Shown here: positions 18,187-62,074 of the stretch, in pieces | Layout: every line of letters begins with the position of its first letter | Numbering within the stretch: the first letter of the stretch is position 1 | DNA from: Candidatus Kapaibacterium sp. | Lineage (GTDB): Bacteria; Bacteroidota; Ignavibacteria; Kapaibacteriales; UBA2268 | Length of the DNA: 64,000 nucleotides | Assembly (NCBI GenBank): GCA_023957315.1 | Contig: JAMLHE010000002.1 | Coordinates: 124,001 to 188,000, forward strand | Reading direction: 5' to 3' | Notes under the pieces: generated by a model | Database searches by the model: none | What the model was told of the DNA's origin: nothing | The model's input: only the letters and a program-made list of their open reading frames with translations | Translations under genes and position numbers: made by a program

Positions 18187-21100
18187 TTACTCCATCTCCC
18201 TAACTATCTTTACTGTTTCGACGCTGACGGTGGTGACTCGCATCAGCAGGTCAATGACCTTGTCCTTGTAATCGGCAAAGCGGTATGTGTTGAACTTTTC
18301 GGCGATTGTGGGGTCTTTGGGTTTCTTTTCTTTGTATTGGTCAAGTATCCATTCCAAAGCGGAGCGGTTGCCGAGTTTATATTCCCATGCTTCTTTGGGC
18401 ACTCCGGAGAGCGTCGTGATGTTGTCCAATTCGATTGTTCCGCTGTCCTTATCAGCTTTCAATTTTGGCTTATAGACTTCATTTTTCAGCTCAATTGTAG
18501 TTACTTTGAGCGGAAATTCTGTTACGGTTTCAAAGTTGATATGCAAATCCATTAGATTTTTGCCCCAATCCGCCCATTTCCAGAAGTCGTCGTAAAATGG
18601 CACGCGTGGGAACTGACGTTTCAGGTTCATTTCGTATTTCTTGCGGTATGCCGGGTTGTGTAATACTGCGTAAACGTAGTGGAAAATGTCTTCTTTTGTA
18701 ATGGTTTGGTCTGTATAATTATTGTGAAACTGCTCTAAGCCCCAATCTGTGATGTTGTCAGTTTTTTTATTATTTGAACTGAAAATATATTGTGGAATAT
18801 TTTGTCCATTAGGTGTTATCTGCAAATGTGGTAAATATTTTAAGCCTAAAATATGGAAGGGGCGATCTATTCCAACTCCTGGAACACTCAATAATTTATT
18901 TTGTAAACTGAATTCTTTACCAAATGCATCATAATGATTTTGTGTAAGTACATCATTTAATAATTTTTCAGAATATTGATACAAAATTGTAAATGGACGG
19001 TAAATTGCATTAATTACTAAATCTTTTGAAAAAATTGATTTTTTAGCTCTTTCAAATTCTTTTTTAAGATCTCTACTCCATTTAATACTTAAATTTATTT
19101 TCTTTTCTTGAATACAATTATTATAAATTTCAGAAAAATACTTCATTTTGTTTTCTAAATTTTTTCTATCAAAATCATAAACCCACTCATCTCTATTTGT
19201 GGGTACACCGGGAAAATAAGTCTTGAATATTGCTTGACTACCTTTGTTGAACTTAAAGTTTTTATCAATAATTGGTATCATCGTATCCCAATCGTTTTCA
19301 GTTAATTCAATCCAGTTGTTATTTTTATCGGGTCTTATATGGTCAAAAGTTCCATTTCTGATTAAGTCATGAATTTTTGTTTGCGATAAAAAGCTGACTT
19401 TATCTTCTGCTGTTTCCATCTCAGGACGTCTAATGTAAAATATTCTGCATCCTTTGGGGCTGATATATTTTTGCTCATCATAATAGACCGCTGGTTCTTT
19501 AGCAATCGGAGTGAGTTTTAGTGATTTTTTCAAATAGTTAAATTCTTCCTCATCGTTATTAGATAAATAAATACTGTTATCTGAGGTTTTCACTAAAAGC
19601 ATAATCGCTACTCCGGTTTGAATAGCAAAAACATTGTGTTTAGGACCGGAAAGTTTCGGATTAGCCCTTACATCGCCTCCAAGGTCAATTATGTAAATAT
19701 GGTCAAATTCTGAAGCAACTATCTTCCTAAAGCCGTCAAATGTTCTACTGTTGATGAATGAACGATTTGTGATAAAAGCAATTACACCTTCATCTCCCAA
19801 TCTATCCATAGCCCATCTGTAAAAACGGCTGTACATATCATAGACTTTAGTTTTTTGTGCGCTTGAGTGTTTGATGTATGTGTCTTTGATTCTCTTGTCT
19901 ATAATCGGATATTCGCGGTTTTTGTTGTTGTCGTTTTCGTTCATCTGATTGGCATTGTAGGGCGGATTGCCGATAATGACTGAAATTTTCCGTTCGTTTT
20001 GTTTCTTGATTCTTTCCGTATTTTCAGCGGAAACACTGAACAGTTCATTAACCTTGTTTTTGTAATCGAATCCCATGTTGTCGAGCGTATCAACAAAGCA
20101 CAGATTCTTGAACTCTGCATATTCTTCCATGCGTTGCTTGTAGGTGAATTCGATATTCAAATTTGCGATATAGTAGGGCAAAATAGCCACTTCGTTTGCA
20201 TGGATTTCGTTCTTGTATTTGTATTCGAGCTTGTCTTTGGGCAAATAATCAATCAAATCGCAAATGAAAGTACCTGTGCCTGTTGCAGGGTCGAGTATTT
20301 CCACGTTCTTATCCGACAGAAACCGTCCAAAATGCTTATGCAGAAGATAATCCGTGCTTTCAATCATAAAGCGGACTATTTCGTTTGGTGTATAGACCAC
20401 TCCGAGCCGGTCGGCAGCCTTCGGATTGTATGACTTGTAGAAATTTTCGTAAACAATTTTCAAAAATTTCTGCTTTTCGTGATGGTCTGCAATTCCGGCT
20501 GCTGCTACATTGATAGCTTGATAATAAATATTAATCTTAGAGAGCAAATTTTCTCTAATTTGCCGCGTAAAGAAAGTATTAATTACAGTTTCCAACTGCT
20601 TGGCAATGTTATTTTCACGATGGAAATATGGCTCGTCAAATATCGTATTGAAAATATCGGCAGTCAGAATATGCTGAATCATCATTTCGTTAATATCATC
20701 GAGAGTAATTTCCGGATTGATTGATTGCTTGCATATTTCGTGAAATTCTAATAGTTTTGTTATGAATTTTTGATTAACTGTGCTTTTGTTTTCAGCAACT
20801 AAACCCTGATCCCCATAACCTAATTGCTCGTTAATCATATTTCGCAATGCAGTGACGACATTCGGAATATCGCTTTTAAATAGTTCGATTGCAGCACGAA
20901 AATTGGCAACTTCCGGTCGCTGATAATTGACAAAAGATTTGATTAAACTGTCGAGTGCGAGAGCGTTTTGGACATCAGCACGAATGACTTCTCGACCACC
21001 TTGGAACAATATGGCAATTTGGCTGTCCTCGAAAAGTATGTTATCTTTAGGATAGCCTTTGGCAAATTTCTTTTTGATTTCCAAATCAATATCATCGTCC

Positions 21101-21348
21101 TCGTCTTTACTTTCCCAATAACCCCAATCGAGTCTAAGCGAATCCTTGAGTGTACCATCGGGAGTTATGGTTCTACCTGTAGAGGTTTTGATAGATAATT
21201 CAGGAATCAAAATCAGTCCATTTTGCGAAGCGTAATGATTGAGCAAATTATAAAAGGAGTTACGAATGGCAGTTTCCTTACTGCTACCACTGTAATCCTT
21301 GACTTTCTGCAGTTCATTCTGATAATGTTGTATAGCGACTAACGACAT
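18187..21348 (-). CDS. Single-chain restriction-modification enzyme (type ISP/IIG-like, no helicase)
   Basis: A 1053-residue protein combining nuclease, methyltransferase and specificity parts. Residues ~25-120 form a PD-(D/E)xK nuclease, with P63-D64 and E79-S-K81 in WGYWESKD. A helical linker at ~150-310 leads to the N6-adenine methyltransferase, with motif I LDPATGTGTF at ~352-361 and catalytic NPPY at 461-464. The C-terminal ~550 residues resemble the target-recognition region of type ISP enzymes. The SF2 helicase of ISP enzymes such as LlaGI is absent, so cleavage near the site (IIG-like) is inferred. It stands alone, with no separate S or R gene. An AT-rich gap follows upstream. Confidence 0.82.
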   Translation of the reverse strand: MSLVAIQHYQNELQKVKDYSGSSKETAIRNSFYNLLNHYASQNGLILIPELSIKTSTGRTITPDGTLKDSLRLDWGYWESKDEDDDIDLEIKKKFAKGYPKDNILFEDSQIAILFQGGREVIRADVQNALALDSLIKSFVNYQRPEVANFRAAIELFKSDIPNVVTALRNMINEQLGYGDQGLVAENKSTVNQKFITKLLEFHEICKQSINPEITLDDINEMMIQHILTADIFNTIFDEPYFHRENNIAKQLETVINTFFTRQIRENLLSKINIYYQAINVAAAGIADHHEKQKFLKIVYENFYKSYNPKAADRLGVVYTPNEIVRFMIESTDYLLHKHFGRFLSDKNVEILDPATGTGTFICDLIDYLPKDKLEYKYKNEIHANEVAILPYYIANLNIEFTYKQRMEEYAEFKNLCFVDTLDNMGFDYKNKVNELFSVSAENTERIKKQNERKISVIIGNPPYNANQMNENDNNKNREYPIIDKRIKDTYIKHSSAQKTKVYDMYSRFYRWAMDRLGDEGVIAFITNRSFINSRTFDGFRKIVASEFDHIYIIDLGGDVRANPKLSGPKHNVFAIQTGVAIMLLVKTSDNSIYLSNNDEEEFNYLKKSLKLTPIAKEPAVYYDEQKYISPKGCRIFYIRRPEMETAEDKVSFLSQTKIHDLIRNGTFDHIRPDKNNNWIELTENDWDTMIPIIDKNFKFNKGSQAIFKTYFPGVPTNRDEWVYDFDRKNLENKMKYFSEIYNNCIQEKKINLSIKWSRDLKKEFERAKKSIFSKDLVINAIYRPFTILYQYSEKLLNDVLTQNHYDAFGKEFSLQNKLLSVPGVGIDRPFHILGLKYLPHLQITPNGQNIPQYIFSSNNKKTDNITDWGLEQFHNNYTDQTITKEDIFHYVYAVLHNPAYRKKYEMNLKRQFPRVPFYDDFWKWADWGKNLMDLHINFETVTEFPLKVTTIELKNEVYKPKLKADKDSGTIELDNITTLSGVPKEAWEYKLGNRSALEWILDQYKEKKPKDPTIAEKFNTYRFADYKDKVIDLLMRVTTVSVETVKIVREME

Positions 21349-21543: not shown

Positions 21544-24306
21544 TTAGAGAGAGATTTTCTTGCTCATCCAAATGCCATTGATTTTGAGATGGAGCATATA
21601 AACGCCGGAAGTCAATCCGGGGACGGCTGCGCTGTAAGAGTTTACATTGTTGGTAAGCTCAGAATTGAACAGTGTTCTGCCGTTCAAATCATATACTTTC
21701 ATGCCCGAAAGTGTGGCATCGTGCTCGGAGCGGAATGTAATTGAGGCTCCGTCATAATTTACGGAGAAGGTGCCGCCAAACAGTTTGTCGTCAATGACTG
21801 ATGATGGAATCGCAACGCCTGTGATTTGGGCTTCGTCTTTTATTACATAGCCATCGCTTATGACTTTTAAAGTTGCTGCAAATTCGCCTGGCGCTGTAGG
21901 TGTGAAACTTGTTACTATATTGTACTCACGTCCCGCAGCTACTACAAGTGGTTCTTCTTCCGATACTGTCGGCAAAGCGAACGTGAATTCGGAGCTGCCG
22001 GTAACTTCAAATCCTGTGACAAACATATCTACCATGCTTGGATTTGTGATACGGACATAACGGTCTTTCACAGGTTCGCCAGCCGCTTGAGTAGCAAAGT
22101 CTGTACCTGTAACTTGTAAACGCGGGTTAGCAACTTCGGCAGTGAGATAGTCGAAATATTGAACATCGCCATCGGCTAATTTGATGCCAATCTGATTAGA
22201 AAATGCCCCTTCGATTTTTTTAATATCATCTTCATTCATATTGCGAGCGTTGAAACGAACCTGGAATTTGTGTTCTTCACCGGGTTTCAATACTGTGTTT
22301 TCTTCGATATTATTAATAATTTCAAATTGTGTGTCATTTTTCTGGAATACGATCGAATTGACAGGCACAGTGCTCATACTTTCATTATTAGTAAGTGCAA
22401 ACTCTAATTCTTCAAATTTACCTGATTTCAATTTGCCGAAATAAGTCTCAGTAGAAACAATAGTTGGAACAGGTGTTGCCTTAATACTGAATTCAACAAT
22501 TTTATCGTTGCCTCTTCTATCAGTCACAGCAAGAACTGCTTTTGATGATTTATACTTATTTACCACATTTATTTGGAAATTTGTTTCGTTATCAATTCCC
22601 GGAATAAAAGGAGTATATTCGAGTTTGTAATTATCGCTAAGTGCATTAATCAATCGTACCGAAGATAGTCCGGAAGCATTTGATGTTTGAACTTCGTCGC
22701 CGTCTTTGCTAACTTTAGAGATTGGTTGAGTAACGTCTCGGACTACACCGGTGATGTTGCCGTTTTCGTCCATTTCGTAGTCTATTTCAGGTGCGAGTGA
22801 ATCGTCAGAAGACATATCAATAAGTCTGCCTGATGCGGGGAAACCGTATGAATCATACCAATCATATCCATATGCATAAACCGCAAATGGTTCATCAGCT
22901 TTCATTCTATATACGCCATCATGATCCAGTTTTAACGTTTTGGAGTAATATTGACGCCCGTCTTTTTCCTCACCATAAAATGGGGTTCCCTGCGAAGGAC
23001 TTATATTTTTCACAGGTATCCAATTTAATTCTTCGGCTTTAGCTTCTGCAAACATTAAATCATCGGGAATAGTGCCATCTGCTTTTGCCAAATAAACTAT
23101 ATTTATGTAATTATCGTTAAACCCAAATCCACCTTTAATCCCGGGTGTATTGAATATAACATCAGTTTGGAATTGCTCAACAGGCATTATTTGCATTTGG
23201 AACGGGTCGCTTTCTACACCATCATCCATTTGTCCCGGATTGTATTGAACTACGTTGATAGCTTTGTTAGAAGATATTCTAGCAGGTTTCGGTGTATCCA
23301 TTGCAATTCTCGTTTCTATATATCCTTTGTCTTTGAAGCCGCCTGCAGTATGGATTTTTCCTGCCGGAATACCATCTATTGAAAAATTAGTATTTGCTTC
23401 AGCCGCAAAAACCTTAACAAGGGCAGGTTTTTTTCTATACGCTATTGGTGATACCAAATAACTCTTGCCCCAATTATAAATTGGCAATTCTTGTTCAATA
23501 ATATAGTCGCATGCTGCTATATGAGTTGGAATATAGGCACAGAAATTTCCTGATATTACGGCTACCGGTTTATCTGCATTTACGTTCGAACCTGTCAAAT
23601 CATTAAATTGCCCGACACCTGCTATCAACCAAACGTCGCCTTTGTGGATCATTTTGGTCATGCTCTGTCCGGCTTTGAGTTCGTCACCATTTTCTTTAAT
23701 TATTCTCATAGTCTCGAAGCCGCCAAGTTTGAAATTAACAGTAGTATTATCGTAAGCACCGACTATACTTGTATAGCTTGGTAAAAATTGCCCGGTGTTG
23801 TTAGTTGGGTCGGCATAGGATGCTACTTGATAATCAGTACCAAGTACGTTAATTGGCAATGCCATATAGCCATCTGATGTGTATTGAAAACGTGTTACGC
23901 CATAACAGATAATGGGGTCTTCCGCAGTTATTATAATAGCTCGCTTTTCCCATACTTGAGATGGCTGTGGTGCAACAAAGTCCGATTTGGAATACACCTG
24001 GGCTTCTGTCGGTTTTAGAGTAAATTCAATTACATCATTTGGTATAGTCTCTTTGACAATGGTAATAGCAAAACCGGGTATACTAAGTGTAACTTTTGTC
24101 TTGTAGAGCGAGGCTACATAAATTCGGATTGCATTGTTTGGTCCCTGCGTTTCCCAGCAAGGATGAAAAGTCATAAGGAATTCTGTACCGGCGTTTGAAG
24201 CACCAAGCAACAGCGAAAGCTTGTCAATATCGGACTCGTCAGCCCTTAGTGAGGAAAGCGGCAACAAAATAGCAATTGCCACTACAAAAAGTAGAAAATG
24301 TTTCAT
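21544..24306 (-). CDS. Secreted IgGFc-binding-like T9SS protein, paralog 1
   Basis: Large exported protein (~920 residues). The signal peptide MKHFLLFVVAIAILLPLSSLRA is predicted to be cut before DESD. The start is 24306 because GAGGTG lies 7 bases upstream. Residues ~30-480 match the IgGFc-binding N-terminal domain (FLMTFHPCW, CYGVTRFQ, GYMALPINVLG, QFLPSYTSIVG, KPVAVISGNFCAY, VVQYNPG). An ASH/CARDB-like region (~620-830) follows, and the last ~75 residues form a T9SS type A sorting domain (MKVYDLNGRTLF, GVYMLHLKING, SKKISL). Likely on the cell surface. It is the most diverged of three tandem paralogs. The ligand is unknown, and the name reflects the fold only. Confidence 0.85.
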   Translation of the reverse strand: MKHFLLFVVAIAILLPLSSLRADESDIDKLSLLLGASNAGTEFLMTFHPCWETQGPNNAIRIYVASLYKTKVTLSIPGFAITIVKETIPNDVIEFTLKPTEAQVYSKSDFVAPQPSQVWEKRAIIITAEDPIICYGVTRFQYTSDGYMALPINVLGTDYQVASYADPTNNTGQFLPSYTSIVGAYDNTTVNFKLGGFETMRIIKENGDELKAGQSMTKMIHKGDVWLIAGVGQFNDLTGSNVNADKPVAVISGNFCAYIPTHIAACDYIIEQELPIYNWGKSYLVSPIAYRKKPALVKVFAAEANTNFSIDGIPAGKIHTAGGFKDKGYIETRIAMDTPKPARISSNKAINVVQYNPGQMDDGVESDPFQMQIMPVEQFQTDVIFNTPGIKGGFGFNDNYINIVYLAKADGTIPDDLMFAEAKAEELNWIPVKNISPSQGTPFYGEEKDGRQYYSKTLKLDHDGVYRMKADEPFAVYAYGYDWYDSYGFPASGRLIDMSSDDSLAPEIDYEMDENGNITGVVRDVTQPISKVSKDGDEVQTSNASGLSSVRLINALSDNYKLEYTPFIPGIDNETNFQINVVNKYKSSKAVLAVTDRRGNDKIVEFSIKATPVPTIVSTETYFGKLKSGKFEELEFALTNNESMSTVPVNSIVFQKNDTQFEIINNIEENTVLKPGEEHKFQVRFNARNMNEDDIKKIEGAFSNQIGIKLADGDVQYFDYLTAEVANPRLQVTGTDFATQAAGEPVKDRYVRITNPSMVDMFVTGFEVTGSSEFTFALPTVSEEEPLVVAAGREYNIVTSFTPTAPGEFAATLKVISDGYVIKDEAQITGVAIPSSVIDDKLFGGTFSVNYDGASITFRSEHDATLSGMKVYDLNGRTLFNSELTNNVNSYSAAVPGLTSGVYMLHLKINGIWMSKKISL

Positions 24307-24364
24307 AATACACCTCAAAAATGTTTTAAAAATTCAATTATTATCCTTTTATTTTTCATACTCT

Positions 24365-24382
24365 TGTGGCAATTTTGCCACA
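24365..24382. promoter_or_regulatory. Perfect palindrome upstream of paralog 1
   Basis: TGTGGCAA-TT-TTGCCACA is a perfect 18-bp palindrome 59 bp upstream of the ATG at 24306 on the minus strand. The interval 24307-24613 holds no gene. The palindrome is a candidate operator. It could also serve as a terminator for the upstream paralog, but it lacks a T-run. Confidence 0.45.
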
Positions 24383-24613
24383 CTAAGAGTAAACCTGTAC
24401 ATTAAATTCCACATTCTATTTATTTTATCGTTTGCTCAGTCCGCTTTTATTTTTCTATGAGTCGCTCTGAGACAAAGTCGTAACATTTTAGAGCTAATGA
24501 TAGTGTCAATTAATAATGCAAGAAAGATGCCATACAAATATGACATCAGTCTCGTACTCGCTTCCGAGCTATTTTAAATCATTAACAATTCCGATTAAAA
24601 CATTGCTATTTGC

Positions 24614-27361
24614 TTACGAAATTATTAATTTCTTGCTCATCCAAATGCCATCTATATTAATGTGTAGCAGGTAAATGCCCGTTTTAAAACTCGGGACTGC
24701 TACACGATATTCATTTATTTTATTTGTAATGTCTGAATTGAAGATATTTCTGCCGTTCAAATCGTATATCTTTAAGCCCGAAACGATTGCATCATTTTCG
24801 GAACGGAATGTAATCGAGTTACCATCATAATTTACGGCGAATTTCCCACCATAAAGATTGTTATCAAGAACTGATGAAGGAATTGCAGAAGCTGAAATTA
24901 CAGCCACATTTTTAATAATGTACGCATCGCTTGTGATTGTCAAAGTGTCACTAAATTCGCCGGGTTCAGTCGGTATAAATTCCGTTTTTACTAAGTATTC
25001 GCCAAATGCCCCTATTTCAAAGGGATTCTCAACCGATGCTTCGGGCAAATCCAGCACAAAAGGAGATTCAGCCGGGAAATCGAACTTGGTAATTAGCAAA
25101 GGCATTTTGCCGGGATTGCTGATTTTTAGATATTGGTGCTCAATCGTTTCGTCTATCATATGTGTAGAGAAATCAACATCATCGGCAATTATTCGCGGAT
25201 TTGCGACTTCGATTTCGAATATTTTATTCAAGCTCATTGATTGGATGAATTCATCAATTTTGACATCGACATAAAAATGATTTTTGAATACTTGTTCCAG
25301 TTTTTCGATATCATCTGAATATAATTCATTGGCATGGAAACGGACTTTGAAAGGATGCTCTTCCATAGGACCGAGGACTAAATTCTCGGGAATATTTTCT
25401 ATTATTTCGAATTGGGAATCTTCGTTGCTCAATACAATTTTTTCGAGAGGAAGAGTATTCTCTTCGCGCTCGTTAGAAAGTATAATTTCAAAATCTCGGA
25501 AATGCCCGGATTTAATCATTCCCAAATCATAATTGTCGGCGTTTAAACTCAAATTGACTATTGGAGTATAATTAATTTCCTTTAAGCTCCAATTTCCACT
25601 TTTATCGGATGCTATAATAACAGCTTTAGCAGGCTTCCAATAATCAAGAGTCCTTAATTCAAATGTCGTCTTAGGGGATATTCCCGAAATAAAAGGTTCT
25701 ATATTACATTGATAATTGTAGCTGAGAGCTTCAACTAAAGATAGGGAAGCCAAGTTGGAAGGTTCAACTCCTACTTGAGCTACATCAAGCACTGTGCCGT
25801 TGTAATCTCCTTTACAACAATGTCCATCCGCAGGTTGGAATACAGGTGGCAAAGTATCGCCCTTCGTCAAATCACGTAATCGGACAGATGCCATAGTCCC
25901 AAAAGAAGAATTTGCATCATTGCCGTATTGATAAAGCCCGAAGGGGTCATTGGCTTTAATTTGGTGAATTCCTGCTTCCGTGATAGGTAAAATTTTTGAA
26001 TAATATTGGCGTCCGTCATTCTCATAACAATTGGTAGGAGTTCCGGGATTACCGGAAAATGCTTCGAGAGGAATCCAGTCTAATGGACTTTGACTAAAGA
26101 TGCCAACTTGCAAATCCTGTGGAATACCACCATCAATTGCAGCAAGATAAACTAAATTGTAATAGTTTTTCTTAAATTCCAATCCATCCGCTCCAACAGT
26201 TACGAATTTACAATCATTGCTGAATTGCTCGTTTGCGATAACTTGCATCTGAAATGGTGCACTCGCAATGCTATCATCGCTTTTACTTGGATTGTACTGC
26301 ACCACATTAATCGGGTAATCTGACGAAATAATCACAGGCCTGTTAATTCCAATATCGCCGGTACGAACTTCAATATATCCTTTCCCTATTAGTCCACCCG
26401 GTGATATAATCCGAGTAATCAGCTGCCCGTCCATAAAGACTGCGTTGTTCGGCATAGATGTGAATATTCTCGTAATGGGGGGATTCTTTCTATTGGCAAT
26501 AGGAGTAACAATATAATTTTTGCCCCAAGTGCTCACAGGTGTTTGTTGCTCAATAGTATAATCACAATTTGACAAATCGTCCATATCGCCCATGCAGTAA
26601 TTGCCCGAAATCACAGCCACAGGCTTAGTGGAGTTTATTGTTGAACCTGTTAGGTCGTTACTAAAACCGCTTCCTGCAAATAGCCAAACGTCGCCTTCGT
26701 TTAGAGTTGTTCTGGCAACTTCGTTTGGTAGTAAATTTTCTCCATTTAGCAGGCGAACTTTTGTATCGGCATTTCCACCCAATCTGAAAGTAATCTTCGT
26801 ATTATTGTAAATTCCTACTACACTTGTGTAACTGGGCATGAATTGATTTGCACTATTTGAAGGGTCAGGGAGAGTAGCGATTTGATATGTTTGTCCAACA
26901 ACATGAGCCGGTAAAGCCATGTAGCCACCTGACTTGTCTCCAAATCGAGCCACACCATAGCACATCACAGGGTCGGCAGCTTTAACAATTATAGCCATCC
27001 CTTCCCATACTTGCATAGGCTTGGGCGGAGTAGAAGCGTCCTTCGAATACATTAGAGCCTGTTCGGGAGTTAGCGTGAATTCAATTGTTTGGTTGGGAAT
27101 TGTTGACTTTTCTTCGTAATAATCAATCGCCTCAATTTTCACGCTGACTAAAGTATTAAAGAATGAAGTTACAAAGATTTTTATTTCACCTTCTCCATCG
27201 CCACCTTCGGGTCCCGGGTGGAAAGCCAAATAAAATTCAGTTCCTAAATATGATGAGTTCTTCATCCTATTAAGTAATTCATCGCCTGTCATTTGTGCTT
27301 CAAGCAAATTATGTGAAAACAGTAGCGATACCAGCGTCGAAAGTAGGATAAAATATTTCAT
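24614..27361 (-). CDS. Secreted IgGFc-binding-like T9SS protein, paralog 2
   Basis: A 915-residue exported paralog. The signal peptide (MKYFILLSTLVSLLFSHN onward) has a predicted cut LEA|QMT, leaving an N-terminal Gln. The IgGFc-binding-like domain covers ~30-480 with the same conserved blocks as paralog 1 (FYLAFHPG, CYGVARFG, GYMALPAHVVG, QFMPSYTSVVG, KPVAVISGNYC). ASH-like beta domains and a T9SS type A C-terminus (GLKIYDLNGRNIF, GIYLLHINIDGIWMSKK) follow. GAGGT precedes the ATG. The first ~20 and last ~200 residues are nearly identical to paralog 3 while the middle differs, which suggests recent duplication or gene conversion. Confidence 0.85.
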   Translation of the reverse strand: MKYFILLSTLVSLLFSHNLLEAQMTGDELLNRMKNSSYLGTEFYLAFHPGPEGGDGEGEIKIFVTSFFNTLVSVKIEAIDYYEEKSTIPNQTIEFTLTPEQALMYSKDASTPPKPMQVWEGMAIIVKAADPVMCYGVARFGDKSGGYMALPAHVVGQTYQIATLPDPSNSANQFMPSYTSVVGIYNNTKITFRLGGNADTKVRLLNGENLLPNEVARTTLNEGDVWLFAGSGFSNDLTGSTINSTKPVAVISGNYCMGDMDDLSNCDYTIEQQTPVSTWGKNYIVTPIANRKNPPITRIFTSMPNNAVFMDGQLITRIISPGGLIGKGYIEVRTGDIGINRPVIISSDYPINVVQYNPSKSDDSIASAPFQMQVIANEQFSNDCKFVTVGADGLEFKKNYYNLVYLAAIDGGIPQDLQVGIFSQSPLDWIPLEAFSGNPGTPTNCYENDGRQYYSKILPITEAGIHQIKANDPFGLYQYGNDANSSFGTMASVRLRDLTKGDTLPPVFQPADGHCCKGDYNGTVLDVAQVGVEPSNLASLSLVEALSYNYQCNIEPFISGISPKTTFELRTLDYWKPAKAVIIASDKSGNWSLKEINYTPIVNLSLNADNYDLGMIKSGHFRDFEIILSNEREENTLPLEKIVLSNEDSQFEIIENIPENLVLGPMEEHPFKVRFHANELYSDDIEKLEQVFKNHFYVDVKIDEFIQSMSLNKIFEIEVANPRIIADDVDFSTHMIDETIEHQYLKISNPGKMPLLITKFDFPAESPFVLDLPEASVENPFEIGAFGEYLVKTEFIPTEPGEFSDTLTITSDAYIIKNVAVISASAIPSSVLDNNLYGGKFAVNYDGNSITFRSENDAIVSGLKIYDLNGRNIFNSDITNKINEYRVAVPSFKTGIYLLHINIDGIWMSKKLIIS

Positions 27362-27443
27362 AGCATACCTCGAAAATATGTGTTATATATTAATTCTTTA
27401 TTTTTTTGCTTTACTCTTGCCTAAATAAAATACACACAGAGTA

Positions 27444-30176
27444 TTACGAAATTATTAATTTCTTGCTCATCCAAATGCCATCTATATTAATATGAAGCAG
27501 ATAAACGCCCGTTTTAATAGCGGGAACTGCCACACGATATTCATTTATTTTATTTGTAATGTCTGAATTGAAGATATTTCTCCCTATTAAATCGTAAATT
27601 TTTAAGCCGGATACAATTGCATCATGTTCGGCAAGGAATGTAATCGAGTTACCATCATAATTTACGGCAAATTTCCCACCATAAAGATTGTTATCAAGAA
27701 CTGATGAAGGAATTGCAGAAGCTGAAATTACAGCCACATTTTTGATGATATAAGCATCGCTTGTAATTGTCAAAGTGTCGCTAAATTCACCCGGTTCAAT
27801 TGGGATAAATTCAGTTTTTACTAAATATTCGCCAAATGGCTCAATTTCAAATGGGTTGGCTTCAGTTGCTGCGGGCAAATCAAGCACAAAAGGAGATTCA
27901 GCCGGGAAATCGAACTTGGTAATTAGCAAAGGCATTTTGCCGGGATTGCTGATTTTTAGATATTGATGCTCAATTGTTTCGTCTATCATATGTGTCGAGA
28001 AATCAACATCATCTGCAATTATTCGCGGATTTGCCACTTCGATTTCTATTTCCTTTTTCATTTCTAATTCGCGACTATGCTCCATCAGCACTATTATGAA
28101 TGACGTTTTGAATACTTGTTCCAAATTTTCGATATCATCAGAATATAAATCATGAGCGTGGAAACGGACGGTGAATTCTTGCTCTTCTAAAGAACTAAGT
28201 ACAGAACCGCTTTCGATATTTTGAATTATTTCAAATTGAGGGTCATTCGATTTGAGTTTTAAAGCTTTAAGCGGCACTGAAGTTGTGAAATCGTCATTTG
28301 CGAGAGTTAAGTTGAAATCTCGAAATTTACCTGATTTTATCATCCCCAAATTAAAATCATCTGTATTGATGCTCAAAACAACTGTTGGTTTATATTTAAT
28401 TTTGACAATTGTGTTGTTGCCACGTCTGTCAGTTGCGACTAAGACAGCTTCAGCAGCTTTCCAATAATCAATTGCTTTCAGTCCAAAAGTGGAATTTATT
28501 GTCTTGCCGGCAGTAATATATGGTGGAATTAGTTGAAAATTGTCGCTTAACATCTTAAACATAGTCAAGGATGCCAAACCTGAAGGCTCGACACCAGTTT
28601 GAGCAATATCAACTAAGGTGCCGACTACTTCACCGCTATAAGAAACATCATAAGTAACAAGCGGAGCAACAGTATCAGCAGAAACTAAGTCTAACATCTT
28701 GCTCGTTGAGGTAGTCCCAAAGGAAGTAGATTTGTCATTCCCATAACTATACACTCCAAAGGGGTCTTTTGCTTCAATTTGGTGAAGTCTTGTTTCAGTG
28801 ATAGGCAAAATTGTCGAATAATATTGGCGTCCGTCTTTCTCTTGCCCATATACAGGAATTCCCGGTTCAGCCAAACCCTTGACAGCATTCCAGAAATTTC
28901 CACTATGTTTAATTACCATATCATCAGGGATTTCACCATCAATTGTGGCAAGATAGACCAAATTGTAATAATTAGTTTCATATTCGAAATCTTCTTCAGT
29001 GCTTATAGTACTAAAAATTACATTTTTGCTGAATTGCTCTGTTGGTATAACTTGCATTTGGAAGGGCGAGCTCGCAACGTCATCATCGCTGCTGCTTGGA
29101 TTATACTGCACCACATTAATGGGATAATACGAAGAAATCCTGACAGGTGTAGGAATCCCGGTATCGCCGGTACGAACTTCAATGTAGCCGCTCCCTATTT
29201 GCCCGCCTGGTGATTTAATCTGAGCAATCTCAATTCCGTCCATTTTGATTGAGTTTTCCGGCACTGATGTGAATATTCTCGTAATTGGGAATTTCTTTCT
29301 ATTGGCAATAGGAGTAACAATATAATTTTTGCCCCAAGTGTTCTCCGGTGTTTGTTGCTCAATTGTATAATCACAATTTGACAAATCATCTTTATCGCCC
29401 ATGCAGAAATTGCCCGAAATCACAGCAACAGGTTTAGTAGCTGATACTGTCGAACCGGTTAAGTCGTTATTAGCTCCGCTTCCTGCTATCAGCCAAACGT
29501 CGCCTTTATTTAGAGTGGCTCTGGCTACATCGCCTGGTTTTAAAAGACCACCCATACCATCAACTTCCGTTGTTGAATTGCCTCCTAACCTGAACGTGAT
29601 TTTAGTATTATCATAAACTCCTACAATACTTGTGTAACTTGGCATGAACTGTGAAGTATTGTTTGAAGGGTCAGGCTGAGTAGCGATTTGATATTTTTGT
29701 CCTAAAACATGAGTCGGCATAGCCATATAGCCTTCAGATTTACCATTAGAACGAATTACACCATAGCAAATCACAGGGTCGTCAGCAGTGATAATGATTG
29801 CTCTACCACTATATACTTGTGCTTTTTCAGGCTTAATTGTTGCATTTTCGCTCGTCATTAAATACATCTGAGCTTCTTCTGGCGTAAGAGTAAACTCAAT
29901 TACATCACTATGTTTAGTTTTTTTAGTTTCGATTTTGTTAAGAGCAGGAATACTAAGAGTTACATTTGTTATAAAAATAGAAGACACGAATATCTTGATT
30001 TCGCCAATTTTGCTTGCATTCCCCCATGCAGGATGGAATGTCATATAAAATTCAGTACCTATATTTGATGAGCCGGTCATCATTTTAAGCTCTTCATCGC
30101 TATAAATTTGTGCTTCAAGCGAATTATGTGAAAACAGTAGCGATACCAGCGTCGAAAGTAGGATAAAATATTTCAT
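27444..30176 (-). CDS. Secreted IgGFc-binding-like T9SS protein, paralog 3
   Basis: A 910-residue exported paralog and the first gene of the tandem set in transcription order. The signal peptide is nearly identical to paralog 2 with predicted cut LEA|QIY. IgGFc-binding-like domain at ~30-480 (FYMTFHPAW, CYGVIRSN, GYMAMPTHVLG, QFMPSYTSIVG). T9SS type A sorting domain at the end (GVYLLHINIDGIWMSKK). GAGGTG lies upstream of the ATG. Only 82 bp separate it from paralog 2 downstream, so co-transcription is likely. An ECF sigma gene lies upstream in the same orientation but is cut off by a terminator. Confidence 0.85.
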   Translation of the reverse strand: MKYFILLSTLVSLLFSHNSLEAQIYSDEELKMMTGSSNIGTEFYMTFHPAWGNASKIGEIKIFVSSIFITNVTLSIPALNKIETKKTKHSDVIEFTLTPEEAQMYLMTSENATIKPEKAQVYSGRAIIITADDPVICYGVIRSNGKSEGYMAMPTHVLGQKYQIATQPDPSNNTSQFMPSYTSIVGVYDNTKITFRLGGNSTTEVDGMGGLLKPGDVARATLNKGDVWLIAGSGANNDLTGSTVSATKPVAVISGNFCMGDKDDLSNCDYTIEQQTPENTWGKNYIVTPIANRKKFPITRIFTSVPENSIKMDGIEIAQIKSPGGQIGSGYIEVRTGDTGIPTPVRISSYYPINVVQYNPSSSDDDVASSPFQMQVIPTEQFSKNVIFSTISTEEDFEYETNYYNLVYLATIDGEIPDDMVIKHSGNFWNAVKGLAEPGIPVYGQEKDGRQYYSTILPITETRLHQIEAKDPFGVYSYGNDKSTSFGTTSTSKMLDLVSADTVAPLVTYDVSYSGEVVGTLVDIAQTGVEPSGLASLTMFKMLSDNFQLIPPYITAGKTINSTFGLKAIDYWKAAEAVLVATDRRGNNTIVKIKYKPTVVLSINTDDFNLGMIKSGKFRDFNLTLANDDFTTSVPLKALKLKSNDPQFEIIQNIESGSVLSSLEEQEFTVRFHAHDLYSDDIENLEQVFKTSFIIVLMEHSRELEMKKEIEIEVANPRIIADDVDFSTHMIDETIEHQYLKISNPGKMPLLITKFDFPAESPFVLDLPAATEANPFEIEPFGEYLVKTEFIPIEPGEFSDTLTITSDAYIIKNVAVISASAIPSSVLDNNLYGGKFAVNYDGNSITFLAEHDAIVSGLKIYDLIGRNIFNSDITNKINEYRVAVPAIKTGVYLLHINIDGIWMSKKLIIS

Positions 30177-47741: not shown

Positions 47742-47840
47742 TAAGGTTTAGAAATGATTATATAATTGGGTTCTATAATCATTTTAAAATATACATTATA
47801 GTTAAATATTAATTTAATGAACCCTAAATTTGGAGTTGTT

Positions 47841-49337
47841 ATGTTAAAAAGATTACTTCTCTCTTTTGCTATATTTTCTTTAGGCTATACTTTTATGTTA
47901 GCCCAAGAATTTGCCGGCAGTGAATCCTGTAAAAACTGCCACCCTAATGCATATACTCATTGGAAACAATCTGGACATCCATATAAAATTCAAAAATTGG
48001 ATGGGACAAATGGGCCAACTTACCCGGTCCTATCTGCTGAAAAGAAAATAGGAAGCCAGATTAACTATGTCCTGGAAAGTGGTGTCCCACATCCACCAGA
48101 AGGATTAAATTGGAGTGATATTGGTTTTGTCCTTGGTGGGTATTGGTCAAACGCTCGCTTCTTAGATTTGGAAGGATACTTAATTTGGGGTCCAAAACGC
48201 CAATATAACCTTGCTACTAAAAGATGGGTACAATACACTCAAGCCGAACCCGGTAAGACTACATATTCTTACAATTGCTACCGCTGCCATACAACCGGAC
48301 CAAGCAGAGATAAAACACCTGAATTTGAGGCTTATCCGGGAATCCAAGGTAGCTGGGCTGAAGCTGGAATAGGATGTGAAGGATGTCATGGACCATCGAA
48401 ATCTCATGTATCAAGTCCAAGCTCAAAACCAACTACAAACCGCGATTGTCTCCCTTGTCATGCCCGTGACAGAGACTTTGAAACAACTACTTACACATGG
48501 AATAAAAGAGTTGAATGGCAACCTAGAACTGTTAATGAGGTGCCAACCGGATTTGTCCGTCATCGCGAACAAGGTGATATGCTACTCGCTTCTAAACACG
48601 GTGCTATGGGCTTCGACTGTGCTACGTGCCATGATGCACATAAAGGCGTATATTTTAATATAGGTGGAATTAAACCAAGTGCAAGCTGTGAAAATTGTCA
48701 TACTAATAAACATATTACAGGACATGAATTTTCAAAAACAAATGCGTCTTGTATAGATTGCCACATGCCAAAAGGCGCAAGAAATGGTGATCAGTTGGGT
48801 CCTTATGTGTCAGAACAAAGTTTGCATTTCTTTAAAATACTGACAGATCCTATCACAATGTTTGATAACCTGGAAGATATTTCAAATACAGCGACTCCGC
48901 CGAAAACTTATAAATTCATAAAAGTTGATGACAAGGGCATGTCCGGTTCAACTCTTGAATATTCATGCTTGCAATGCCACACAACAAAAGATGTGCAATG
49001 GGCTTCAACTCATGCTAAGGGCATTCATACAAATGGTATCACTCATGTTAATAATGCAAGTGGAATACCATCTGCTTATACCATGAGTCAGAACTATCCA
49101 AATCCTTTCACATCATCAACAACGATTAAATTTGCTTTACCAAGTGCTTCAAATGTTACTTTAAATGTTTATAATGCACAAGGTTCTTTAGTATCAGTTA
49201 TAGTCAATAATGTTTGGATGAATAGTGGATACCATGAAGTTACCTATAATGCAAAGGGCTTACCAAGCGGCGTCTATATTTATAGTATCCAAGCCGAAAA
49301 CTTTGGATTTTCAAGAAAAATGATTCTAAATTTATAA
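47841..49337 (+). CDS. Octaheme cytochrome c with T9SS sorting domain
   Basis: Exported multiheme cytochrome c of ~498 residues. The start is the ATG at 47841, preceded by GGAG; an upstream ATG at 47817 lacks one. The signal peptide is followed by predicted cut MLA|QEF, leaving Gln. Eight CxxCH motifs can be counted: CKNCH, CYRCH, CEGCH, CLPCH, CATCH, CENCH, CIDCH, CLQCH. The first part fits the cytochrome c554-like pattern. The last ~80 residues are a T9SS type A domain (SQNYPNPFTSSTTIKF, LPSGVYIYSI, SRKMILNL). Secretion to the surface would place hemes outside the outer membrane, suggesting extracellular electron transfer or an oxidoreductase. Hairpin repeats flank it. Confidence 0.88.
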   Translation: MLKRLLLSFAIFSLGYTFMLAQEFAGSESCKNCHPNAYTHWKQSGHPYKIQKLDGTNGPTYPVLSAEKKIGSQINYVLESGVPHPPEGLNWSDIGFVLGGYWSNARFLDLEGYLIWGPKRQYNLATKRWVQYTQAEPGKTTYSYNCYRCHTTGPSRDKTPEFEAYPGIQGSWAEAGIGCEGCHGPSKSHVSSPSSKPTTNRDCLPCHARDRDFETTTYTWNKRVEWQPRTVNEVPTGFVRHREQGDMLLASKHGAMGFDCATCHDAHKGVYFNIGGIKPSASCENCHTNKHITGHEFSKTNASCIDCHMPKGARNGDQLGPYVSEQSLHFFKILTDPITMFDNLEDISNTATPPKTYKFIKVDDKGMSGSTLEYSCLQCHTTKDVQWASTHAKGIHTNGITHVNNASGIPSAYTMSQNYPNPFTSSTTIKFALPSASNVTLNVYNAQGSLVSVIVNNVWMNSGYHEVTYNAKGLPSGVYIYSIQAENFGFSRKMILNL

Positions 49338-54939: not shown

Positions 54940-56612
54940 ATTCGCTCTCGTTTGAAGAATACGAAGCCGTTTTTGCGATATAACTCGATTAATTCGTGGT
55001 ATTGATTTGCAAAATTGTCGGCAGCTGTCATCTTTGCCGAGAAATATGCGTCGCTATCGATATCGCCTTCGAGCAGAAATTGTTCATATTCCCTGCCTGA
55101 CATCCCCAAATAATAGCGTGAGCGCTCGTATTTCTTTGCGCCATAATAAAATGGCACGTATGACTTATATCCCAGAGTATGCAAGTAAACATCATCTTGG
55201 GCAAGGTAGCCAAAAAATTCAATCGGAGCAGCTTGTGTGTATTGTTCAATTTTGGGCGCTACGAGTGGCAAAAATAGTGTTATGGTTACTGCAATAGTCG
55301 CTGTCAGGGCGACAAATGAGGGCAAATATTTTCGCAGAAAGACTAATACAAGCGAAATGCAAAGCCCCACGAAAAATATGATTCCTACAATATACTCAAA
55401 ACCTCCCCAATGTACGCGCGAACTCAGCACTTCGTATGTCATTTCGTCTGTTATTTTTGGCAAAATCATTTCTACATTGATTAATGCAAGTGGGAAAAGT
55501 ATAAAAAGTGCCGAATATACAATGCCAATCAAAGCTAACATTGCGGTCGTTGTCCATTTCCAGCCGATTTCACGATAAACTATTGAATACACTGAATATG
55601 CTGCTAAAAATGTAATCGGGAAATACGCCAACGATGAATAATGAACTATTTTGGTTTTAACGATTGAAAAAATAATTAGGACAACAGCAAGCAGAACAAA
55701 ATTCCATATTTTGAATAAATTTTGCGATTGCGAATCATCGGCTTGTTTGCGGAAAGACCTGAAAATCAGCACTGAAGCCGGAAAGCATCCCAACAACAAA
55801 ATCACAAAATGATAATAAATCGGTCCCGAATGCCCCGCATCTCCCGTAGTTAGCAAACGGATGTGGTACATTATGAAATCTTCCACCAATCCACTGCCTG
55901 ATTGCATAATCAGCAAGGAATACCAAATTAAGGGCAAAATTGAGGCATAAAGCGTGAATAGCAACAATTTTTTTATTGGAAATTTTGCTTGTTTGCGATA
56001 AATGAAAAAGACGCCTGCCCAAGTCAGTACTATCAGCAAATAAGCCACCGGACCTTTAGTCAACATCCCCAATGAGCAGAACAATCCTGCATAAAACAAA
56101 TCCATTGCTTTGAATTCACTCTTCTCCAATTCATTTTTACTAAGTTTGAAAAGGTAGTAGATGGAGAGATATATCAGCAAATTGAACGTCGGGTCTATGA
56201 TTGCAGTTTTGAAATAAAAATGTGGCAGCAGAGAGCCTACAAAAGCCATAACCCAAATCAAGCCAAATTTGACATCAAATAATTTTCTGCCTGTGTGGAA
56301 CAGCACTTGAATCGTGATGATGCCAATCAATGCGTTCGGCAATCGAGCAGCAAATTCGTTAATGCCGAAGATGTGCATCGAAAGCGCCTGCATCCATATA
56401 AAAAGCGGGGGCTTTTCGTGGAATGGCTCAAAATCTATGCGGACGTTTAGATAATCGCCCGTTACAAGCATTTCGCGAGCCGCTTCAGCAAAGTTGATTT
56501 CGTCCCAATCAAATAAATGCACCAAACCTAAGTTTGGGATGAATAAAATTACGCCGAGAATGGCAAGCAAAAATGAAATTCTCAATATGCTCTTCGTATC
56601 CATTTCAGGCAA
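54933..56612 (-). CDS. GT39/ArnT-like membrane glycosyltransferase
   Basis: A 559-residue integral membrane protein of the PMT/ArnT class, which moves a lipid-linked sugar to an extracytoplasmic acceptor. The first periplasmic loop has the catalytic acidic pair context DWDEINFAEAAREMLVTGDYL, followed by FHEKPPLFIWM, both hallmarks of the class. About twelve hydrophobic segments follow, with a soluble C-terminal tail. ArnT itself uses aminoarabinose; the sugar here is not known. It overlaps thpR by 8 bp and is co-transcribed with it. Confidence 0.85.
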   Translation of the reverse strand: MPEMDTKSILRISFLLAILGVILFIPNLGLVHLFDWDEINFAEAAREMLVTGDYLNVRIDFEPFHEKPPLFIWMQALSMHIFGINEFAARLPNALIGIITIQVLFHTGRKLFDVKFGLIWVMAFVGSLLPHFYFKTAIIDPTFNLLIYLSIYYLFKLSKNELEKSEFKAMDLFYAGLFCSLGMLTKGPVAYLLIVLTWAGVFFIYRKQAKFPIKKLLLFTLYASILPLIWYSLLIMQSGSGLVEDFIMYHIRLLTTGDAGHSGPIYYHFVILLLGCFPASVLIFRSFRKQADDSQSQNLFKIWNFVLLAVVLIIFSIVKTKIVHYSSLAYFPITFLAAYSVYSIVYREIGWKWTTTAMLALIGIVYSALFILFPLALINVEMILPKITDEMTYEVLSSRVHWGGFEYIVGIIFFVGLCISLVLVFLRKYLPSFVALTATIAVTITLFLPLVAPKIEQYTQAAPIEFFGYLAQDDVYLHTLGYKSYVPFYYGAKKYERSRYYLGMSGREYEQFLLEGDIDSDAYFSAKMTAADNFANQYHELIELYRKNGFVFFKRERIQ

Positions 56613-57147
56613 TTATATTGTAAATTGGTCCTTGGTTTGTTAGAGAGCTTTCAACTAAACTTATCTTATACGACGGCATCAGACCAATCGGCATATTGTT
56701 ATAGGTCTTCAATTTATCGGCAAATCCGGTCAGAGAAGATTTGACACGCATCAAAGTCACATGTGGAACGAAAAATTTGACCTCGGGCGGAAATCCGAGA
56801 GCCGTCATTTTCTTTTCGATGATGTCATAATTTTTCTTAATGCTATTATCGGGATTGAAAACACGTGCATAGACGATTCGCGGTTTGTTGGGAGTCGGGA
56901 AGCAACCCAATCCGCGAATTTTCAAGGGAGATTCCTTCAATCCTAAGGAATCGCCGAGTGATTCGATTAGAGAATCAATTTTATCTAATTCGATATTTCC
57001 CAAAAATTTGTAAGTGAAATGCAAGTTGTTGATTTCAGTCCATTTTCCGAAGACAACTTCGCCTAACTCATCTACAATTTCATCGTATATAGGTTCGAAT
57101 AATGTATAGTCAACAAAAGTTCCAATAAAAAGTCGCTTTACTGCCAT
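56605..57147 (-). CDS. thpR: RNA 2',3'-cyclic phosphodiesterase ThpR (LigT)
   Basis: 2H-family phosphoesterase of 180 residues. Both catalytic HxTx motifs are present: LHFTYKFLG near residue 43 and PHVTLMRVK near 130. It opens with KRLFIGTFV, the family N-terminus. It hydrolyses 2',3'-cyclic ends to 2'-phosphates in relatives. It lies at the head of a two-gene unit with the downstream GT39 gene, overlapping by 8 bp. Confidence 0.9.
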   Translation of the reverse strand: MAVKRLFIGTFVDYTLFEPIYDEIVDELGEVVFGKWTEINNLHFTYKFLGNIELDKIDSLIESLGDSLGLKESPLKIRGLGCFPTPNKPRIVYARVFNPDNSIKKNYDIIEKKMTALGFPPEVKFFVPHVTLMRVKSSLTGFADKLKTYNNMPIGLMPSYKISLVESSLTNQGPIYNIIA

Positions 57148-57352
57148 TATAATTTTTCTCTATTACTAAACAAAAGTTAATGCAAAAAAATTCTACCTCG
57201 AATGCAAACAAAATCAATCTTTTACAAGAAAATATCAATAAAAATAACAAAAAGTAATGAAATAATAGTCAATTTTTTTAAAAGCATAGTGATTATTTTT
57301 TTAGTTTGCCGTATTTTTAGATTATTATAAAAATGGAAAATGAAAAAACTTT

Positions 57353-58153
57353 ATGACAGAATCGCCTTATAATGCAACAGTAATCGGGAAAATACTTCTG
57401 ACACCCGATTTGTTAGTCTTGCGATTGAGCACTGATAAGCCTCGAACGCAATTTAAAGCAGGTCAATACACACAAATAGGGCTTTTGTCCCAAGAGCAAC
57501 GTTCGCCAAATTCGGTAATGCCACTCGAATCTATGGCTCCGGATATTTTGATTAAGCGCCCCTATTCGATTGCATCAGCTAATTTTGAAACAACCGAATT
57601 TGAGTTTTATGTTAGTCAAGTGAAATCGGGGCAACTAACCCCAAGACTTTTCAATCTGACTTTGGGCAGAAGAATGTGGATTGATGATAAAATTCTCGGT
57701 GTGTTTACGCTCGACAACGTCCCCGAAAATTGCAACATCGTTATGATTGCAACAGGCACAGGGCTTGCTCCGTATATGAGTTTTCTCCGTTCGCATCTGG
57801 CAACTCACCTAAATACTAAGTTGGCTATTATTCATGGAGCAGGTTACCCTTGGGATTTGGGCTATTTCAGCGAACTAACGCTGATTCAAAATACTTTCAA
57901 AAATTTCTATTATTTCCCAACTTTACTAAGAGCTGACCAAAATTGGGCAGGATTGACCGGATATATTGAAAAACATCTCGAAGATGGAATATTACCCAAT
58001 AAAGCCGGAATCGAAATTGACCCAAAGAAAACTCATTTCTTCTTGTGTGGCAATCCCAAAATGGTCGAATCTGTTTCTTCTTATTTATATAAGAATAATT
58101 ATATCAAACATTGCAAAGAAACTAAAGGTTCATTGCATATTGAAGAATATTAA
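57353..58153 (+). CDS. Ferredoxin/flavodoxin-NADP reductase-like FAD oxidoreductase
   Basis: FNR-fold protein of 266 residues. The FAD-binding motif RPYSIAS is at ~70 and the NAD(P)-binding GTGLAPYMSFLR at ~140. FFLCGNPKMVE and the C-terminal GSLHIEEY complete the Fpr-type pattern. It lacks the C-terminal 2Fe-2S domain of PaaE, yet it is the nearest reductase to the paa genes and may supply electrons through a separate ferredoxin. A lipoprotein gene follows 1 bp after its stop. Confidence 0.88.
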   Translation: MTESPYNATVIGKILLTPDLLVLRLSTDKPRTQFKAGQYTQIGLLSQEQRSPNSVMPLESMAPDILIKRPYSIASANFETTEFEFYVSQVKSGQLTPRLFNLTLGRRMWIDDKILGVFTLDNVPENCNIVMIATGTGLAPYMSFLRSHLATHLNTKLAIIHGAGYPWDLGYFSELTLIQNTFKNFYYFPTLLRADQNWAGLTGYIEKHLEDGILPNKAGIEIDPKKTHFFLCGNPKMVESVSSYLYKNNYIKHCKETKGSLHIEEY

Positions 58154-58154
58154 A

Positions 58155-58793
58155 ATGATAAAATTTCAAATGTCTTATTTTAGATTAATAGCAATTGCAT
58201 TACTGATTTTGACGACTGTCTCGAGTTGTATTATCGTCAAACATGATGACGAATATATACAAATTGAGCCGGAAATTGCCATTAGCCCCAAACCGATTAT
58301 TCCATTATCTGAAAACATGATTCGCTCTGTCAAAGGCGATATGATTGCATTTCTGCCGCAAGGGTGGTTTGTGATTGACCCGAAGGACAAAGTTTCGCCG
58401 GATATAATCGCTATCGCTATCAACCCTGAATACAATCTCAGTGCAGTGTTTTCTGTGATTCGACATTCGGCGACTGTCCAAGAGGCATTCGAAGGCGAAG
58501 GCTTGTATGGCGTTGCTCGGATGAGTCTCGGCAAAAGAGAGCGAAAAACTTCGAGTGTGGTGCGTCAAGTGGGCAAATATCAAAAACTTAATATTGGTTT
58601 GCAAGAATTTGTCAAATACGAATATTCCACCACTGGAGGTGCTGTCAAAGCCAAATCGGTGGTTTTCATCTCCACTGCAAACGAATTTTACGAGTTTTCG
58701 CTCGTCCCGATGATTGTAGATGACAATCCGCTTCCGAGTTTTTCAGAAGCCGATGACATTTTTACATCTATATTGACCGGAATTAAATACTAG
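58155..58793 (+). CDS. Predicted lipoprotein of unknown function
   Basis: About 212 residues. The start at 58155 lies 1 bp after the reductase stop; a longer open frame runs into that gene and is not used. The signal peptide LIAIALLILTTVSSC has a lipobox Cys at ~25 and the mature protein lacks membrane segments. Domain family not recognised; the later part (AFLPQGWFVIDPKDK, VKYEYSTTGGAVKAKSVVFI, FTSILTGIKY) resembles small PsbP/DUF1795-type beta folds, tentatively. Probably exported and lipidated. It is probably co-transcribed with the reductase. Confidence 0.65.
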   Translation: MIKFQMSYFRLIAIALLILTTVSSCIIVKHDDEYIQIEPEIAISPKPIIPLSENMIRSVKGDMIAFLPQGWFVIDPKDKVSPDIIAIAINPEYNLSAVFSVIRHSATVQEAFEGEGLYGVARMSLGKRERKTSSVVRQVGKYQKLNIGLQEFVKYEYSTTGGAVKAKSVVFISTANEFYEFSLVPMIVDDNPLPSFSEADDIFTSILTGIKY

Positions 58794-58798
58794 CAATA

Positions 58799-59767
58799 TT
58801 ACTTTTTTTGCAAAAGTTGCTTTCCTATTTCTGTATAAGATTCAATCATACTATCTAATGTTATGGATTTTATTCCCGTATCGCCTTTATCGGCGCGTAC
58901 AGAGATTTCAATTTCTGAAAGCGGGCGGAATTTGACGTAAAATTCATCTAATCCACTATAAAGTGCAAGAACAGGAATATTGAATGCCGCAGCAATATGC
59001 ACAAGTGAAGTATCCGGACCAATCAATAGACTTGCTCGGCTGATTAGCGAGACAATATCCGATATTTCCGGCGAAGAAAATACTTTTATTTCCCTATCAA
59101 GTTTGAAAATGATTGAATTTGCCACACCTTTGTGGTTGGGGGCATGGCACAATATAAGTTCTCCAAGCAGATTCGATTGCGATCTGATGAACCTGACCCA
59201 CAAGTCTTCGTGCCACATCTTGTCGTCCTTGCTTGCCGAAATATTCAAAAGTGTGAATTGATTTGCATGAGAGCCAATGAATTCGTCAATTTTTTTCTCG
59301 GAATTGGGATTCAATGGCAACGTTGGGCGGGGGATTTCATTGCTTAGCTCATATCCCAATGGTCTCAGCGCATTCAAGCCGATTTGGACTTGGTGCAAAT
59401 TATGATTTTCGTTGCTGATGCCATGCGTGAAAACTGCCTTTTTCGCTTCGGAATTGAAACCGATTTTCATTTTTGCTCTGCCAATTCGAGCCAATAATCT
59501 TCCTTCGGTGGAATGATGGTCTCGCGGGTCAATCCAAACGTCAAATCGTTTAATCAGCAACTTTAGCAATGTGAGCAACAGCTTGTGAGGCGCTTTGTTC
59601 AGGACAATGATTCGGTCAATTGCCGGATGCCCTTTGATAATGCTGTAATTGCTCGGACCAACAAGCAAAGTAACTTGTGCCGAATATTTATTTTTCAGTT
59701 CTTCAAGCATCGGTGTTAATAAAATCAAATCGCCGATTCTGCCGAGTTGCACTACCATTGCTTTCAT
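58799..59767 (-). CDS. GT9 family glycosyltransferase (heptosyltransferase-like)
   Basis: A 322-residue GT-B enzyme of family 9, which includes ADP-heptose:LPS heptosyltransferases. It has the N-terminal VVQLGRIGDLILLTPML, ISASKDDKMWHEDLWVRFI and the C-terminal LIGPDTSLVHIAAAFNIPVLALYSG. It overlaps the upstream GT9 gene by 4 bp (ATGA) and lies at the end of a three-gene run. ADP-heptose made by the split hldE products at 10.7-12.2 kb is the likely donor, although GT9 members can use other sugars. Confidence 0.9.
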   Translation of the reverse strand: MKAMVVQLGRIGDLILLTPMLEELKNKYSAQVTLLVGPSNYSIIKGHPAIDRIIVLNKAPHKLLLTLLKLLIKRFDVWIDPRDHHSTEGRLLARIGRAKMKIGFNSEAKKAVFTHGISNENHNLHQVQIGLNALRPLGYELSNEIPRPTLPLNPNSEKKIDEFIGSHANQFTLLNISASKDDKMWHEDLWVRFIRSQSNLLGELILCHAPNHKGVANSIIFKLDREIKVFSSPEISDIVSLISRASLLIGPDTSLVHIAAAFNIPVLALYSGLDEFYVKFRPLSEIEISVRADKGDTGIKSITLDSMIESYTEIGKQLLQKK

Positions 59768-61995: not shown

Positions 61996-62020
61996 AATTA
62001 CTAAAATAGTAAATTGTGAG
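61991..62020. promoter_or_regulatory. Inverted repeat at the start of the LPS glycosyltransferase operon
   Basis: CTCACAATT (61991-61999) and AATTGTGAG (62012-62020) are perfect 9-bp arms around 12 bp. They overlap the proposed GTG start, so they could form an operator or an RNA hairpin that hides the ribosome site. Confidence 0.45.
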
Positions 62021-62074
62021 GAAAAAATCACAAAAGCTGCAAATGAGAGCGAAGGAATTTATTTGGGGGTATCG

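Follow-up and report, generated by a model that had tools for sequence, protein, structure and literature searches.

Array genes and their products

The window analysed here is a stretch of 64,000 nucleotides within a 3.55-Mb draft genome (28 contigs, 98% complete) of an uncultured Ignavibacteriae bacterium. It carries a tandem array of three genes with the following spacer and motif.

27444..30176, minus strand: P3, array gene 1, 910 aa
27362..27443, minus strand: P3-P2 spacer, 82 nt
24614..27361, minus strand: P2, array gene 2, 915 aa, architecture as in P3
24365..24382, minus strand: near-perfect palindrome TGTGGCAAAATTGCCACA, upstream of P1
21544..24306, minus strand: P1, array gene 3, 920 aa counted from the ATG

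The open reading frame of P1 spans 21544-24318, and the ATG giving the conserved MKHF start lies at 24306. All three genes are full length, with intact frames and their own starts; at only 910-920 aa, their products do not merit the label "giants" used in the first-pass annotation. The identity proposed there, IgGFc-binding-like T9SS proteins, was borne out by matches above the cut-offs in P1, P2 and P3, both to Pfam IgGFc_binding (PF17517; 155-188 bits, cut-off 25.6, covering profile positions 1/2-297 of 297) and to the T9SS type A sorting tail (NCBIfam TIGR04183; 25.7-29.7 bits, cut-off 23). The three proteins share a layout consisting of a signal peptide-like start, the IgGFc_binding domain, weak Ig/ASH-like matches and a T9SS type A CTD. 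The genome additionally encodes the SprA translocon (960.7 bits, cut-off 200) and has at least 150 T9SS CTD matches. Because of the signal peptide-like starts, the T9SS tails, SprA and the many CTD proteins, P1, P2 and P3 are likely secreted to the cell surface.

The IgGFc_binding family takes its name from an animal protein, and IgG binding by P1, P2 and P3 should not be assumed from that name; an adhesin-like binding role would be a guess from domain architecture. An AlphaFold model built with eight sequences had a mean pLDDT of 59 and an unusable head, and a fold search with it returned Ig/ASH-type stacks (ciliary central-apparatus proteins, CEP192) at low TM-scores; therefore, no fold is claimed for the head. 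Sequence searches of solved structures with the array proteins gave only noise, and viral contigs yielded no relatives of them.

Corresponding arrays were found in two other species of the same genus, namely on JAGXRP010000022 (G001), which is labelled Desulfobulbaceae but is plainly a close relative of the present genome, and on PGYU01000002 (G002), from Ignavibacteriae bacterium HGW-Ignavibacteriae-1 of the phylum Ignavibacteriota. The array order is P3-P2-P1 in the present genome, A-B in G001 and A-B-C in G002. P2 is the ortholog of the first array gene (A) in both relatives, and P1, an older paralog, is the ortholog of the last (B in G001, C in G002). Gene B of G002 is an old P1-type gene with a dS near 1 to gene C, and P3 occurs only in the present genome among the three. 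With one genome per species, recombination between strains is not caught by this sample, and since all three genomes are drafts and at least two are labelled MAGs, local assembly error is conceivable.

The DNA upstream of the first array gene is alike in the three genomes, though that gene is P3-type here and P2-type in G001 and G002. By eye, the 82-nt P3-P2 spacer resembles in kind the 91-nt spacer of G002 genes B/C, and also the start-codon-side part of the 307-nt P2-P1 spacer; the distal part of that P2-P1 spacer resembles the spacer ahead of G002 B, and its proximal part the one ahead of G002 C. These likenesses would fit unequal exchange at repeated starts and spacers; the order of events given below is inferred. 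The palindrome upstream of P1, possibly a regulator site, is also found upstream of G002 gene C; the genome contains the pattern TGTGGC-N6-GCCACA twice only.

Gene A of G001 (L059 1165-3912) has one in-frame TAG, at codon 19 in the signal peptide, where TTG or TCG stands elsewhere; the codon may reflect a genuine loss of export or a mistake in the assembly. The glycosyltransferase region at 55126-62024 of the window lies directly after P1 in the G001 contig (L066 7096-14000) with a dS near 1, and therefore reflects either a rearrangement or a contig join.

Block structure of P2 and P3

Identity between P2 and P3 is 66% at the protein level and 72% at the DNA level, and P1 is only 44-45% identical to either in protein, as expected from its earlier description as the more distant paralog. 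Sliding-window identity along P2 and P3 was blocky, not uniform. The ends had been described as nearly identical and the centres as diverged, which holds: codons 1-22 differ in one residue and at 0 of 17 synonymous sites, DNA identity is ~90% over the last ~195 codons, starting at column ~741, and the centre is mostly at 50-60%, down to 46% in places. The two-ended mosaic stands for the shared start and tail, but it overlooked a third shared patch in columns 181-300, where identity climbs to 0.81-0.91 around columns 221-280 before dropping again. The blocks are given below on P3 with P3-unique sites per codon, meaning positions where P3 departs from P2 as well as from both P2 orthologs.

30111..30176, minus strand: shared block 1, codons 1-22, near-identical to P2 27296-27361 (0/22)
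29646..30110, minus strand: diverged block 1, columns 23-180, 0.77 P3-unique sites per codon (122/158)
29289..29645, minus strand: shared block 2, columns 181-300, within the IgGFc_binding domain, 0.09 (11/120)
28029..29288, minus strand: diverged block 2, columns 301-740, 0.78 (342/440)
27447..28028, minus strand: shared block 3, columns 741-934, last Ig-like domain and T9SS CTD, ~90% DNA identity to P2 24617-25198, 0.05 (10/194)

The boundary at column ~741 roughly coincides with the beginning of the final Ig-like domain.

Synonymous divergence (dS) between P2 and P3 was low in codons 1-22 (0), columns 216-290 (0.40) and columns 741-934 (0.36), intermediate in columns 291-480 (0.62), and high in the diverged columns 23-145 (2.37) and 481-720 (2.23). 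Genes flanking the array have a dS of about 0.13-0.35 between the present genome and G002, and P2 behaves as an ordinary ortholog because its dS to its G002 counterpart is 0.17-0.54. Private synonymous P3 codons numbered 70/268 in diverged and 7/249 in shared blocks (Fisher P 5e-15, a descriptive value, as the block boundaries were picked after viewing the profile). In the permutation tests, which allow for the search over segments, none of 200 permutations gave a segmental synonymous heterogeneity between P2 and P3 as strong as that observed. At synonymous sites, neither chance nor plain constraint can account for the pattern, and because synonymous divergence is blocky, protein-level selection alone is ruled out.

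The trees gave conflicting topologies, with the head data rejecting the tail tree (AU test, 4e-80) and the tail data rejecting the head tree (0.014). Three trees (FastTree, 71-sequence set) placed the head and stalk of P3 as sister to, or inside, the genus's P2 clade. Since the synonymous sites follow the same blocks and the head and tail trees reject each other, the P2/P3 mosaic points to recombination and not to mere constraint on the ends. At columns 195-252, gene A of G001 sides with P3 and not with P2 (0/2000 permutations), and therefore exchange reached the G001 lineage too. Along the tail, sites that unite P3 with P2 alternate in short blocks with sites that unite P3 with G001 A (10 runs over 31 sites, P 0.016). 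The extra gene of G002 similarly approaches its neighbour in sequence over columns 863-930 alone (synonymous-codon identity 0.89 vs 0.63), a suggestive result (12/200 permutations). Combined with gene content that differs among the three congeneric genomes, the blocky synonymous divergence and the head/tail conflict support the first-pass proposal of gene conversion or domain shuffling.

History of the array and alternative readings

We consider it likely that the locus is a birth-and-death tandem array of T9SS-exported IgGFc_binding surface proteins with recurrent homologous recombination between copies. P3 would be an old, genus-level paralog of P2, because the dS of about 2 in its diverged blocks is near saturation compared with about 0.3 for flanking genes between species. 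Tracts of the P2 lineage may then have overwritten the first 22 codons of P3, its IgGFc_binding patch, and its last Ig-like domain and sorting tail, or the conversion may have run in reverse. Unequal exchange between homogenised starts, spacers and tails would add or drop whole genes, perhaps starting from an ancestral four-gene array, and would have produced the different arrays of the three species. With a dS of 0.36, the P2/P3 tails date back about as far as the species split, and the tail homogenisation is therefore not recent.

Recombination could also have had the opposite history, in which P2 was recently duplicated and the centre of P3 was then replaced by an imported divergent segment. 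The closeness of the tail dS to the flanking-gene divergence would suit this order of events, as would its need for one gain rather than two losses. However, the diverged blocks of P3 still group with P2 within the genus, no donor was found elsewhere in the genome, the G001 patch shows that another species had access to a P3-like gene, and a single import does not yield three separate shared blocks; we therefore regard this history as unlikely.

A further reading is programmed antigenic or phase variation, with an expression locus that draws on silent copies or is turned on and off. The constant-variable-constant layout recalls vlsE, msp2 and bab (PMC4534519, PMC4552749), and the TAG in the signal peptide of G001 gene A could switch that gene off. 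The vlsE/msp2 cassettes likewise have conserved ends around variable regions and undergo segmental gene conversion, but they rely on many silent donors and a single expression site (PMC4534519), neither of which was found here. Within the 98% complete genome, no silent donor of the P3 head was detected outside the array (best DNA match about 70% over 215 bases), and the P3 tail DNA matched P2 and P1 only, other CTDs being dissimilar. Searches for simple or tandem repeats in P1, P2 and P3 and for long inverted repeats at the locus found none (best distant arms 21 nt at 81%). P1, P2 and P3 are all full length with their own starts, and the P2 head has conserved orthologs in G001 and G002 (83-86% aa, columns 23-480). 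Programmed variation is accordingly very unlikely.

Positive selection on the heads was unsupported on average, with dN/dS below 1 in heads and tails, mostly 0.03-0.5 and reaching a maximum of 0.75 in one 20-codon stretch. Judging by these comparisons, the heads are old, stable lineages within the genus and not hypervariable. With a conserved P2 head, dN/dS below 1 and no silent donors, simple repeats or long inverted repeats, the term "surface-variation system" in the first-pass annotation would serve as an analogy only. Its formula of constant ends and a varied head is partly right, in that P2 and P3 share their tail; the head segment 181-300 is shared too. Among the P1 orthologs, divergence is greatest not in the head but in the final Ig-like domain (columns 741-825, 59-67% aa), so a constant tail fails for the family as a whole.

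Chimeric genes assembled from a strain mixture or by repeat collapse are a highly improbable source of the mosaic; the draft status of the genomes, at least two of them labelled MAGs, and the G001 contig that joins, after P1, sequence 30-40 kb off in the present window would allow for such an artefact, but the mosaic gene is embedded in a long contig and has conserved flanks, orthologs of P2 and P1 were recovered in two independent assemblies, and the frames of all three window genes are intact. Functional constraint acts on T9SS CTDs and signal peptides, and tail dN is low; yet ends kept alike by strong purifying selection on export signal and sorting tail, with no recombination at all, are barely credible given the same blocks at synonymous sites, the conflict of head and tail trees, the saturated or nearly saturated synonymous sites between the tails of P1 and P2/P3 despite the same kind of CTD, and the dissimilarity in DNA between the array tail and other genomic CTDs.

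Comparison with known systems and neighbouring genes

For the recombining tandem array favoured above, our best reading is that it would represent a further case of a known type of recombining surface paralogs, resembling the bab genes of H. pylori. The babA, babB and babC genes similarly have near-identical N- and C-terminal regions and a divergent middle whose type is kept per paralog, form chimeras through gene conversion close to the 5' end and within the 3' part, and vary in content between genomes; for babA/babB, the middle region is conserved per paralog (PMC4552749). Unlike the present tandem array, the bab genes are scattered over different loci, and babB is switched through CT repeats of a kind not seen here; they encode outer-membrane adhesins where the array encodes T9SS cargo, and the array is known from one genome per species. 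The Giant1-5 genes of Apilactobacillus kunkeei are also consecutive large surface-protein genes with short intragenic recombination and lineage-specific gene gain, but they belong to a Gram-positive bacterium, encode 3,000-8,000 aa and differ in domains and anchoring (PMC12863079). It is doubtful, though conceivable, that recombining tandem IgGFc_binding genes in free-living Ignavibacteriae reshuffle the exposed binder while keeping export and anchoring modules; the pressure would then possibly come from phages or biofilm partners and not from an immune system.

Relatives of the array proteins abound in T9SS bacteria, with 2 to 23 matches per genome in 40 related genomes, yet almost nothing on the bacterial ones was found in the literature searched. 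The mapped mosaic supplies domain boundaries for expression and binding tests, and paralog conversion can mislead ortholog calls and trees in the IgGFc_binding family. Mosaic synonymous patterns recur in other arrays (L091, L094, L095). Among other tandem arrays of the order, L091 shows the constant-tail form clearly, and one L089 pair shows it by identity; as only a minority show it, the homogenised-tail pattern is not universal. Identical last ~30 codons in L087 were discounted as a probable assembly overlap, since they lie at both ends of one contig. Three dispersed relatives that share one genome (L061 2742-7274, L062 2895-7424 and L063 1-1572; two proteins of about 1,510 aa and one cut by a contig end) are mutually mosaic at synonymous sites.

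The type ISP restriction-modification gene adjoining the array (18187-21348) is also constant-variable-constant. Compared with G002, its first ~590 aa are 93% identical and its last ~195 codons 94.7% identical in DNA, and the specificity region between them has been replaced and is split into more than one ORF in G002; the gene is absent from G001, where at most a 32-aa match lies on another contig. Elsewhere in the window, 47817-49337 encodes a multihaem cytochrome with MtrC/MtrF-like and cytochrome c554/c7 matches and a T9SS sorting tail, making it a candidate surface-exported electron-transfer protein.
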